From: an uncultured Clostridia bacterium | GTDB taxonomy: Bacteria; Bacillota; Clostridia; TANB77; CAG-508 | NCBI GenBank assembly: GCA_947591055.1 | Contig: CANQCW010000007.1 | Location: 1 to 32,060, forward strand | DNA length: 32,060 nucleotides | Direction: 5' to 3' | Part shown: positions 1 to 17,220 of the stretch, piece by piece | Position numbering within the stretch: position 1 is the stretch's first letter | How the letters are laid out: the number at the start of each line of letters is the position of its first letter | Notes under the pieces: model-generated | What the model was told of the DNA's origin: nothing | Databases searched by the model: none | What the model saw: the letters and a program-made list of their open reading frames with translations, nothing else | Made by a program: the position numbers and the translations under genes

Positions 1-7
1 AAAAAAT

Positions 8-50
8 AAAGTTTACATTAACATAATAATATTATGTTAATGTAAACTTT
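8..50 (-). terminator. Rho-independent terminator of tex (perfect 20-bp inverted repeat, 3-nt loop)
   Basis: aaagtttacattaacataat-aat-attatgttaatgtaaacttt; on the minus strand it is followed by ATTTTTT just after the tex stop. Confidence 0.8.
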
Positions 51-59
51 GCAAACTTT

Positions 60-2216
60 CTATATATTTTTCATTGATAATTTAACCTTTTGCTTTTCAA
101 AATCTATACCTATAACTTTAACTTTTACAATATCTCCAATTGAAACTATATCTGTTGGTTTCTTTACGAATTTATCACTCATTTCTGATATGTGTACTAA
201 TCCATCATGTTTTACACCAACATCAACAAATGCACCAAAATCAGTTATATTTCTTACAGTACCAGTTAGTATCATATTTTCTTTTAAATCTTCAAACTTT
301 AAAACATCACTACGAAGTATTGGTTTTGGCATATCCTCTCTTGGGTCTCTTCCTGGTTTAGACAACTCTTTTATAATATCTACTAAAGTAATTTCTCCAA
401 CTTCTAATTCATCTGCTGTTTTTGATGTATTAAGTGCAGAAAGTTTAGTTTTAATTTCTTGTAATTTTTCTTTATCTAAAATATCTTCTTTTTTATATCC
501 AATACTATTTAAAAGCTTTTCTGTAACATTGTAACTTTCAGGGTGAACAGCAGTTATTTCAAGAGGATTTTTACCATCAGGAATTCTTACAAAACCTGCA
601 CATTGTTCAAAGGCTGACTTTCCTAATTTAGGAACTTTTAGTAATTCTTTTCTTTCTTTAAACTTACCATTTTCATCTCTATATTTTACAATATTTTTAG
701 CAACACTAGAGTTTATTCCAGCAACATAAGATAAAAGAGATGATGTTGCAGTATTTAAGTCTACTCCTACCTCATTAACAGCATCTTCAACAACACCTGA
801 TAAACTCTCAGATAATTGTTTTTGGTCAACATCATGTTGATATTGTCCTATACCAATTGCTTTTGGATCAATCTTTACAAATTCAGCTAGTGGATCTTGA
901 AGTCTTCTAGCAATTGAAATTGCACCTCTTAACGATACATTTAAGTCTGGATATTCTTCTGTTGCTAATTTAGAAGCAGAATAAACAGACGCACCAGCTT
1001 CACTTACTATTGTATAATATACATCTATTCCAGTCTCCTCTTTTAGCTCTTTGATTGTGTCTGATACAAATATTTCAGACTCTCTTGAAGCTGTTCCATT
1101 TCCAATTGCAATCATATTAATATTGTCTTTTTTAATTAATCTAATTAACTCTTTTTTAGAGCCTTCAATATCATTTTGTGGTTCTGTTGGATAAACAACA
1201 CCTGTATCTAAAACTTTTCCAGTTTCATCTATTACAGCAAGCTTGCAACCAGTTCTATAAGCTGGGTCAAAACCAAGTACAGTAAGACCTTTTAAAGGAG
1301 CTCCTAATAAAAGTTGTTTAGCATTTTTTCCAAATACACTAATAGCTTGCTTATCTGCTTTTTCTGTTAAATCAGCTCTAATTTCTCTATCAATTGAAGG
1401 TTCAATTAATCTTTCGAAACTATCTTCAATCGATTCTTTAATTAATTGTGCTCTATCTCCATTAGTTTTTATCATTTTATTAGAAATTAGTTCTATAATT
1501 TTATCTTCATTTTTATTAATTTTAACTTTTAAAAACTCTTCCTTTTCTCCCCTATTAATTGCTAATATTCTATGGCTAGGAATAGTTGATATTTTCTCAC
1601 TAAATTCATAATACATCTCGTAAGGAGATTTCTCATCTTTTTTAGATGCTGAAGTTTCAATTATTCCTTCTCTGTAATAAATACTTTTTATCTTCCTTCT
1701 AAAATCAGGATCATCAGAAATAATTTCTGCTATTATATCTTTGGCACCTGAAATTGCAGAATCTGTATCAGGAACTTCATCTGTAATAAAATCTTTAGCA
1801 ACATCAAATATAGAACTATTATCTTTTTGTTCTAAAATATTTTGTGCTAAAGGTTCTAATCCTTTTTGTTTTGCAATAATTGCTCTTGTTTTCTTCTTTT
1901 GCTTGTATGGTCTATATATATCTTCAACTTCAGCAAGTGTCAAGGCATTTTCAAGACTTACTCCAATTTCATCAGTCCACTTTTCTTGATTTACTATTGA
2001 ATTTTTAACTTCTTCTTTTCTTTTTTCTAAGTTTCTTAAATATGTAAGTCTATCATTTAAGTTACGCAAAACTTCATCACTTAAGTTTCCTGTAACTTCT
2101 TTTCTATATCTTGCAATAAATGGTATAGTATTACCTTCATCAATAAGTGAAATAGTTTTTTCTACTTGATATTCCTTAATATTTAGTTCCTCTGCAATTA
2201 TATTTGTAATGTTCAT
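60..2216 (-). CDS. tex: Tex-family transcription accessory protein (YqgF-like fold, HhH, C-terminal S1 RNA-binding domain)
   Basis: 718-aa ORF; IPFIARYRKEVTGNLSDE near the N-terminus, GFDPAYRTGCKLAVID, C-terminal S1 motif GTVRNITDFGAFVDVGVKHDGLVHISEMSD. Confidence 0.97.
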   Translation of the reverse strand: MNITNIIAEELNIKEYQVEKTISLIDEGNTIPFIARYRKEVTGNLSDEVLRNLNDRLTYLRNLEKRKEEVKNSIVNQEKWTDEIGVSLENALTLAEVEDIYRPYKQKKKTRAIIAKQKGLEPLAQNILEQKDNSSIFDVAKDFITDEVPDTDSAISGAKDIIAEIISDDPDFRRKIKSIYYREGIIETSASKKDEKSPYEMYYEFSEKISTIPSHRILAINRGEKEEFLKVKINKNEDKIIELISNKMIKTNGDRAQLIKESIEDSFERLIEPSIDREIRADLTEKADKQAISVFGKNAKQLLLGAPLKGLTVLGFDPAYRTGCKLAVIDETGKVLDTGVVYPTEPQNDIEGSKKELIRLIKKDNINMIAIGNGTASRESEIFVSDTIKELKEETGIDVYYTIVSEAGASVYSASKLATEEYPDLNVSLRGAISIARRLQDPLAEFVKIDPKAIGIGQYQHDVDQKQLSESLSGVVEDAVNEVGVDLNTATSSLLSYVAGINSSVAKNIVKYRDENGKFKERKELLKVPKLGKSAFEQCAGFVRIPDGKNPLEITAVHPESYNVTEKLLNSIGYKKEDILDKEKLQEIKTKLSALNTSKTADELEVGEITLVDIIKELSKPGRDPREDMPKPILRSDVLKFEDLKENMILTGTVRNITDFGAFVDVGVKHDGLVHISEMSDKFVKKPTDIVSIGDIVKVKVIGIDFEKQKVKLSMKNI

Positions 2217-15698: not shown

Positions 15699-16930
15699 TT
15701 AGTCATAATTAATCATAGAGTAATAAAAAGCATTTGTTCCAATTCCACCCTGCCATGAAATCGAAATTTTTCCTTCATTGCCATTTAATTTTACTTTTAT
15801 TAAATAGCACTGTGAGGTAACTGCGAAGTCTTCCTTTACGGCTCTTATCGCACCACTAGAACCAAGACTCTCACTCGTGTAAGATTCTACGCAATCACCT
15901 GTTACCTTCAAAGTACCCCAACTATATGTCGTTGCACCTGTCGCAATAATATAGCAATAGTCTAATCCGTGCAGGAATATGATAACCGAGAACAACTTGT
16001 ACCAATTTTTGTTGCAGAAAATCTTTTGTTTTTTTCCTGAGTTAATTGCTCCTTCAATTCATTTACTTCATTAGTTTTATCTTGCATTGTTCCTATTAAT
16101 TGTACTCCACCTACCCATGCCTTCCTTCCCGTTAATATTTGTGCTGCAGTAGCATCTCCTGGTGTTTGACTTGCTAAATCTTTGGCTGTTATTTTTCCTC
16201 CACTTGTGTAGCCTGCTGGTATTTCTTTTGTATCTCCTGCACTTAATTCTTCACTTATTGCTCCTATACTTGGCATTGTTCCTGTCTTTACTGAACCATC
16301 TTCTGCTAAATATGTTTTGTCTTTTAATACATCTGATTCTACTGCTGTTATAGAATTACTTAGTGTTACTATATCACTTATTGCTTCTACATACTTTCCA
16401 TCTGTATCATATACTTTTACTCTCACATAATAACTCTTTCCTAAATTTAATTCTTTAAATGTATGTGTATATTCTGTTTTTTCTTCTTCTATTTCTTCAT
16501 CTGAAATCCATATCTTTCCGTTATCTATGCTATATTCTATTTTACTTGCTTGTCCTTCTATTGTTAATTTTACTGTTATTGTTTGTTCCTTTGGATTTCC
16601 TTCTACTGTCAATGTTTTTATCTCTACTGATGCCTTGTCTTCTCCTTCATCTCCACCTACTACAGAGAAATCACTTACATATTGTTCTAACATGCCTATT
16701 TGAATTTGTTCTTCTTCTGCTGCATTTTTATATTTTTCTACGGCTTGTCTTGCCCTATGAAATAATCCATTACTTCCTGCTATTTGTGATATTGTTACTC
16801 CCACTAATATCAATAACAATATTATTGTTACTACCAACGCTATTAATGTTATTCCTTTTTCTTTTAATTTTTGTTTCTTTTTATCTTCAAGTTTTAAATT
16901 AACATTTCTTTGTATATTATTACATTTCAT
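15699..16930 (-). pseudogene. Pilin-like surface protein interrupted by a frameshift (ORF pieces 15962-16930 and 15699-15995)
   Basis: Type IV prepilin-like N-terminus KEKGITLIALVVTIILLLILVGVTISQ; Fn3-like segment; phage-tail-fibre-like repeat VLKDKTYLAEDGSVKTGTMP...AAQILTGRKAWVGGVQLIGTM. The frame stops at 15962-15964 (TAG) and plausible C-terminal coding continues in another frame. Confidence 0.65.
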
Positions 16931-16998
16931 TTGTCTAATCTCCTTCTTTCACATTATGTAATTTTTATTAATGTAAAACATTAATAAAAAAGTAAAAA

Positions 16999-17035
16999 AT
17001 CTTATAATCGGCATTACTCATGCTTTTTATAAGAT
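16999..17035. terminator. Bidirectional terminator-like hairpin inside the inverted-repeat element
   Basis: ATCTTATAA-TCG-GCAT-TACTC-ATGC-TTT-TTATAAGAT flanked by A-run and T-run on both sides. Confidence 0.75.
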
Positions 17036-17087
17036 TTTTATTTTTTATTTTTTACAAATTTGTAATATATATTTAACTTTTATTTTA

Positions 17088-17116
17088 TTGAATTAACCCT
17101 TATACTATGATATATT
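17088..17116 (+). promoter_or_regulatory. Promoter-like motif inside the inverted-repeat element, pointing away from the pilin-like gene
   Basis: TTGAAT-17 nt-TATATT on the plus strand. Confidence 0.4.
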
Positions 17117-17165
17117 TTGAACATAATAAATTTTTATTAAGGTTTTACATTAATAAATAAAAAAA

Positions 17166-17202
17166 ATAAAACACGATTCTTATTTAAAGTCTCGTGTTTT
17201 AT
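17166..17202 (-). terminator. Terminator of the 451-aa ORF
   Basis: ATAAAACACGA (17166-17176) / TCGTGTTTTAT (17192-17202), followed on the minus strand by TTTTTT. Confidence 0.85.
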
Positions 17203-17220
17203 TTAATACAATTTTACATC

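Follow-up and report, generated by a model that had tools for sequence, protein, structure and literature searches.

A probable invertible promoter upstream of a prepilin-like gene, one of a large family of such units in an uncultured Clostridia bacterium

Can the short intergenic segment that precedes a pilin-like surface gene in an uncultured Clostridia bacterium be turned around, so that its promoter faces the gene in some cells and away from it in others? The question is raised by a DNA stretch of 32,060 nucleotides (the window), in which two inverted repeats flank a promoter-like motif directed away from a gene for a prepilin-like, membrane-anchored surface protein of 322 aa (15962..16930, minus strand) with a constant N-terminus and a stalk. 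A sequence-only reading had placed the ATG of this gene at 16930, correctly, and had proposed a phase-variable promoter caught in its OFF state. Our analysis supports that proposal with four inverted sister units, 7-bp cores shared by the two sites of a unit, promoter conservation and a co-occurring recombinase. Segment 16962-17159 is very probably an ON/OFF invertible promoter of the prepilin-like gene and part of a network of at least 27 switches flipped by a tyrosine recombinase.

The anatomy of the unit can be read directly from the window. The two 29-bp repeats, the gene-proximal site at 16962..16990 and the gene-distal site at 17131..17159, match at 27 of 29 positions as inverted copies, as first described, and no such pair arose in 1000 first-order or in 1000 second-order Markov shuffles of the intergenic region. 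The caveats attached to that description were also borne out: the repeats match at 24 of 29 positions as direct copies, and each is nearly palindromic (26/29 self-complementary in the left copy, 22/29 in the right). Each site consists of two 10-bp arms around a 9-bp centre, an architecture conserved across 118 units. Within the centres lie 7-bp overlap (crossover) cores, GTAAAAC on the plus strand at 16973..16979 and its reverse complement, GTTTTAC, at 17142..17148. Between the sites is the invertible inner segment (16991..17130), which contains a terminator-like hairpin with T-runs on both sides (16998..17036; stems 16998-17007/17027-17036 and 17011-17014/17020-17023) and, on the plus strand, a -35 box TTGAAT (17088..17093) followed after a 17-bp spacer by an extended -10 element TG-A-TATATT (17108..17116) that at present points away from the gene. 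The conserved unit measures about 211 bp (query positions 3-213) and on the left side runs past the repeat as far as about 16947. A flank on the gene side, with an ACATAAT tract and the Shine-Dalgarno sequence AAGGAG (16940..16959, minus strand), stays with the gene in either orientation. Just beyond the distal site is a second hairpin (17164..17204; inverted repeat I4, 89% complementary), which would stop transcription running outward from the OFF promoter as well as that of the converging neighbour gene.

A genome search for further copies, which the sequence-only reading had recommended, showed that the unit is far from unique. The assembly to which the window belongs (G000; 1.245 Mb in 100 contigs, 69% complete) carries the unit many times at 79-91% identity, and 27 full units were tallied in it. 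Within the genus the unit was found in 6 of 31 genomes (G000 and 5 of the 30 others), and these six provided the set of 118 units with both sites that is used throughout. Since loci were retrieved in contig orientation, each was re-oriented by its gene. In nearly all cases the first gene beyond the unit is prepilin-like, and the distance from unit to start codon is nearly fixed. Outside the repeat, the flank on the gene side (ACATAAT, Shine-Dalgarno, ATG) does not vary, in contrast to the opposite flank. At L002, L003 and probably L099 the unit precedes a gene for a small membrane protein (MKKSEI... in L002 and L003) and not a prepilin-like gene. At L028 (1470-1585) only a decayed half unit remains, one site missing.

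The constant flank makes it possible to assign an orientation to individual units, and the comparison among relatives that had been suggested as a check revealed both states. A total of 115 units could be classified, 111 of them OFF, like the window unit, and 4 ON (L018 in G000, L129 and L139 in G024, and L154 in G025); in the latter the inner segment is inverted relative to the gene. One of these, L129, is embedded in more than 700 bp of sequence on both sides and is therefore not an artefact of a contig end. Two further loci flagged automatically as ON were set aside as chance matches, L020 (position 1470), which is a decayed half unit, and L171, which lacks the gene-side flank; L161 was left unclassified. 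Two defining features of an inverton, inverted repeats that flank a promoter upstream of a regulated gene and the occurrence of both orientations among homologous units, are present, and orientation-dependent expression is predicted without transcript data. Note however that both orientations were seen across units and not at one locus in reads.

The many natural copies also reveal where strands are probably exchanged. Counting outward from the inner segment at each site, each of core positions 1-7 has the same base at both sites in 117-118 of the 118 units, though several of these positions vary among units, and many distinct core types exist, each matching within its own unit. Positions 0-6 are jointly identical within units in 113 of 118 cases, whereas 2000 within-genome permutations averaged 54 and never exceeded 68, a contrast whose significance is overstated because the permutation takes units as independent. 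The next base outward, position 8, matches in 57 of 118 units (53.6 expected), which is chance level, and stays with the flank in the inverted unit L018. Given that positions 1-7 are matched within units and position 8 is not, sequence comparison places strand exchange in a 7-bp core, the footprint of a tyrosine recombinase; with 10-bp inverted arms around this core, the sites satisfy the criterion for such an enzyme (inverted arms around a matched overlap of 6-8 bp). Neighbouring units show no significant tendency to differ in core (both members have the same core in 5 of 22 pairs, 7.4 expected, P = 0.17). In the window unit both sites carry GTTTTAC, and position 0 is the only core mismatch.

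Contig junctions provide indirect evidence that both orientations coexist. The overlap between contigs C44 and C14 is exactly 77 bp long and ends where the two orientations of L018 diverge. The ON unit L154 likewise ends 77 bp from its inversion boundary, and two OFF units end 78 and 76 bp from theirs. Overall, 4 of 23 fall at 76-78 bp (P = 3e-5 under a uniform model, an optimistic value because the range was picked after seeing the data). Contig names in the relatives follow the NODE scheme of SPAdes, and we infer an assembly k of 77. A branch at this distance suggests, in the absence of the reads themselves, that both orientations were present in them, and ongoing inversion remains an inference. 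A search for the OFF form of L018 on a third contig gave only the two places already known.

The promoter, unlike the repeats, could not be established from the window alone. The plus-strand TTGAAT-17-TATATT motif noted in the original reading is present, but a motif scan of this AT-rich region gave 5 sites against 4.0 expected by shuffling, so that the single sequence is indistinguishable from chance. Conservation across the 118 units is what identifies it: the TTG of the -35 box and the extended -10 element TATGcTATATTTT are conserved at 98-100% at nearly all positions and are the most conserved inner bases of the unit, and the spacer is variable. These patterns are those of a putative sigma-A-type promoter, the activity of which is inferred without expression data. 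No conserved gene-facing promoter was detected in the inner segment of the 118 units. The claim of a bidirectional terminator-like hairpin was upheld both thermodynamically (MFE -16.6 kcal/mol, z -6.6) and by covariation, with compensatory changes and 87% of cells paired across the 118 units. In about ten units of G024, G025 and G029 (L091, L119, L129, L126, L157 and others), the interval between unit and gene holds a second promoter-like sequence, TTGACT-17-TAAAAT, which is fixed, and control there may not rest on the switch alone.

The genes downstream of the units form a family with a constant base and a variable tip. Paralogues have in common an N-terminal helix and a stalk, with column identities of 0.73-0.98 up to residue 270, and they diverge after residue 300, where column identity falls to about 0.35. 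This combination of a constant stalk with a differing C-terminus suggests that the switch set probably varies the exposed cell surface. The assignment to prepilins is one of resemblance. The type IV prepilin model PF07963 (N_methyl) scored 13.5 bits against a cut-off of 21.2 and was not met, the N-terminus of the target (GITLIALVVTI) lacks the Glu at +5, and the structure model of the protein is of low confidence (pTM 0.31). Homologues of PilB and PilT are encoded in G000, where L304 (111-3778, contig C22) has minor pilin-like genes followed by the PilB and PilT homologues. Prepilin-like genes are common across the genus and occur also where units are absent, and the units therefore add a level of regulation in some species. 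In the window, the hypervariable C-terminus is frameshifted and seems to go on in another frame to 15699; its continuation past the stop at 15962 (15699-15995) is either a real frameshift or an assembly error. Taken with the mismatch at core position 0, the frameshift indicates that the window's own copy may be decaying. At L277, in G031, the product of the gene past a diverged unit appears, on reading alone, to have a C-terminus resembling the formylglycine-generating enzyme / C-type lectin fold. A diversity-generating retroelement was considered and rejected, with no match to the reverse transcriptase family PF00078 in the assembled 69% of the genome.

Which enzyme flips the units? No recombinase gene had been noticed in the window, and a search for a site-specific recombinase had been proposed. 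The search identified a tyrosine recombinase of 302-306 aa that tracks the units: 5 of the 6 unit-bearing genomes encode a protein of at least 73% identity, and the 25 others encode none (Fisher P = 3.5e-5), a test uncorrected for shared ancestry and not independent if the unit-bearing genomes are close kin. The candidate matches PF00589 at 93.1 bits (cut-off 27.1), and all six catalytic residues (R-K-H-R-H-Y) are invariant. In all five carrier genomes, and likewise in L274, the gene lies downstream of tex. The window itself contains tex (60..2216, minus strand; domains Tex_N, Tex_YqgF and S1), which encodes an S1 RNA-binding protein; in relatives this gene marks the locus by synteny, with the candidate invertase gene directly downstream of it. 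Between tex and the contig edge remain only positions 1..59, identical to the matching sequence of G026, in which the ATG of the recombinase lies about 118 bp past the end of the match. The tex-linked recombinase was not found in the G000 assembly, which is 69% complete, and this absence is what an assembly gap 59 bp from the end of tex would give. We infer that the recombinase locus of this genome sits in the gap at the left edge of the window, and that the flipping enzyme is probably this tyrosine recombinase of 302-306 aa, whose gene closely follows tex, an identification made without enzyme data. The 59-bp stretch also holds a palindrome, GTTTACATTAACATAATATTATTATGTTAATGTAAAC, which has TTAATGTAAA in common with the repeat and is possibly a terminator or a recombinase binding site.

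More distant relatives extend the association. Genome G031 encodes a 63% relative and has diverged units whose different cores match internally. Among genomes lacking the unit, the closest relative (52%, G023) is accompanied by similarly spaced inverted repeats upstream of 2 of 6 tested prepilin-like genes; such repeats preceded none of 14 prepilin-like genes in three other genomes. A scan of the collection returned seven relatives, all from MAGs labelled Lapin, which we read as rabbit gut. Other recombinases of G000 are XerC- and XerD-like proteins, an element-type integrase, a 158-aa tyrosine recombinase fragment and two large serine recombinases. The fragment (L034, 1519-1995) is a broken relative of a 331-aa protein in G026 (contig C49). 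Serine recombinases (PF00239) were rejected as the enzyme, being missing from the unit-bearing G025 and present in 16 unit-less genomes, and XerC and XerD were rejected as unit-specific enzymes.

Other explanations must account for the same patterns. The sequence-only reading had itself offered a MITE, a mobile element with terminal inverted repeats that spread through the genome as a 198-bp unit, and one part of that alternative held: the whole unit does occur in at least 27 copies with terminal repeats and a hairpin. The target-site duplications and diverse insertion sites expected of such an element are lacking, since the constant flank of ACATAAT and Shine-Dalgarno sequence leaves no room for duplications. 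Furthermore, a MITE would hardly settle at a near-fixed distance from the start codons of one gene family and a few other membrane-protein genes, keep its promoter boxes better conserved than the rest of its interior, or covary in 7 bp between its two ends, and we consider this origin very improbable. Even less credible is a hairpin that serves a gene-facing promoter as attenuator or riboswitch, with incidental repeats. The hairpin is indeed followed by T-runs on the gene strand, but the conserved promoter faces away, four units are inverted, and an Rfam search returned no family above its own cut-off.

Two further alternatives accept that inversion took place. The switches could once have worked and now be fixed, their regulatory regions copied along with prepilin duplicates and the four inversions old, as the single orientation of 111 of 115 units, the frameshifted window gene and the missing recombinase in G000 would allow. 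We find this improbable, because cores that remain identical within units and diverge between them, in all genomes, need continued exchange; the exact 77-bp junction and the intact recombinase of five relatives also speak against it. Alternatively, inversion may be real and be catalyzed by another enzyme, XerC- or XerD-like or lost in assembly gaps, a possibility left standing by the presence of such proteins in G000, the unassembled candidate and the chance that the co-occurring genomes are one clade. It nevertheless seems unlikely, given that relatives of XerC and XerD are present in unit-less genomes too, while the tex-linked candidate follows the distribution of the units, and diverged units go with its relatives of 63% and 52%.

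Under the preferred reading, an invertible promoter flipped by the tex-linked recombinase, the enzyme would bind the 10-bp arms of both sites and exchange strands inside their common 7-bp core, so that the segment between them flips. When ON, the sigma-A-type promoter would read across one site into the gene, with the hairpin behind it; when OFF, as assembled, the promoter would be directed away and the hairpin would block transcription coming from outside. The cell can probably swap its surface protein by flipping short segments with one recombinase. Whether this amounts to antigenic variation is a speculative extension that we doubt more than we believe: under one tex-linked recombinase, each cell would have roughly one of at least 27 pilin-like genes ON, with most kept OFF, the repertoire of surface-protein tips would shift in the population, and unit-specific 7-bp cores would partly limit cross-talk.

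Promoter inversion is a known mechanism; the scale, the target and the probable master enzyme are unusual here. The finding suggests that uncultured rabbit-gut Clostridia possess a large surface-variation system, for which it names a probable enzyme, and the many natural copies allowed a 7-bp crossover to be mapped by comparison alone, a read-free approach that could suit other switch families. Systems for comparison include the serine recombinase Mpi of Bacteroides fragilis with its invertible promoter network of 13 regions (PMC4747536, PMC5903667), the RecV switches of Clostridioides difficile at cwpV and the flagellar switch (PMC5903667, PMC7446863), the fimA switch of E. coli with FimB and FimE (PMC11868660), the Vpma family of Mycoplasma agalactiae, in which the Xer-type recombinase Xer1 switches surface proteins (PMC2268961), and inverton group 139 of Clostridia with tyrosine invertase group 35, an enzyme encoded near its inverton, in a survey that gave a median of 3 invertons per Clostridia-like gut genome (PMC11892184). 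As in the Mpi network, one master enzyme probably flips many scattered surface-gene promoters by way of short inverted repeats, but Mpi is a serine recombinase of a different phylum acting on capsule loci, and the 27 near-identical switches in front of one pilin-like family, counted in a 69% complete genome, are about twice its 13 regions. RecV resembles the candidate in its proposed role as a clostridial tyrosine recombinase that acts in trans on more than one switch; it differs in serving few loci of unlike sequence, with no family of near-identical promoter units, and its flagellar switch acts after initiation through Rho. At fimA, a single locus, a tyrosine recombinase inverts the promoter of a pilus-type gene, and FimB-type enzymes have about 200 aa. 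The likeness lies in control by promoter inversion, whereas the candidate has 302-306 aa and reached only 24.8 bits against a cut-off of 221 with the FimB/FimE-type invertase model PRK09870. Vpma and Xer1 also represent a surface-protein family switched by a Xer-type recombinase, yet there genes are rearranged in one vpma locus beside xer1, while here scattered genes each have their own invertible promoter. Finally, inverton group 139 shares with the present units the tie between clostridial invertons and a tyrosine recombinase family, a likeness drawn without sequence comparison; its enzyme lies near the inverton, unlike the tex-linked candidate, and the 27 units found here far exceed the median of 3.
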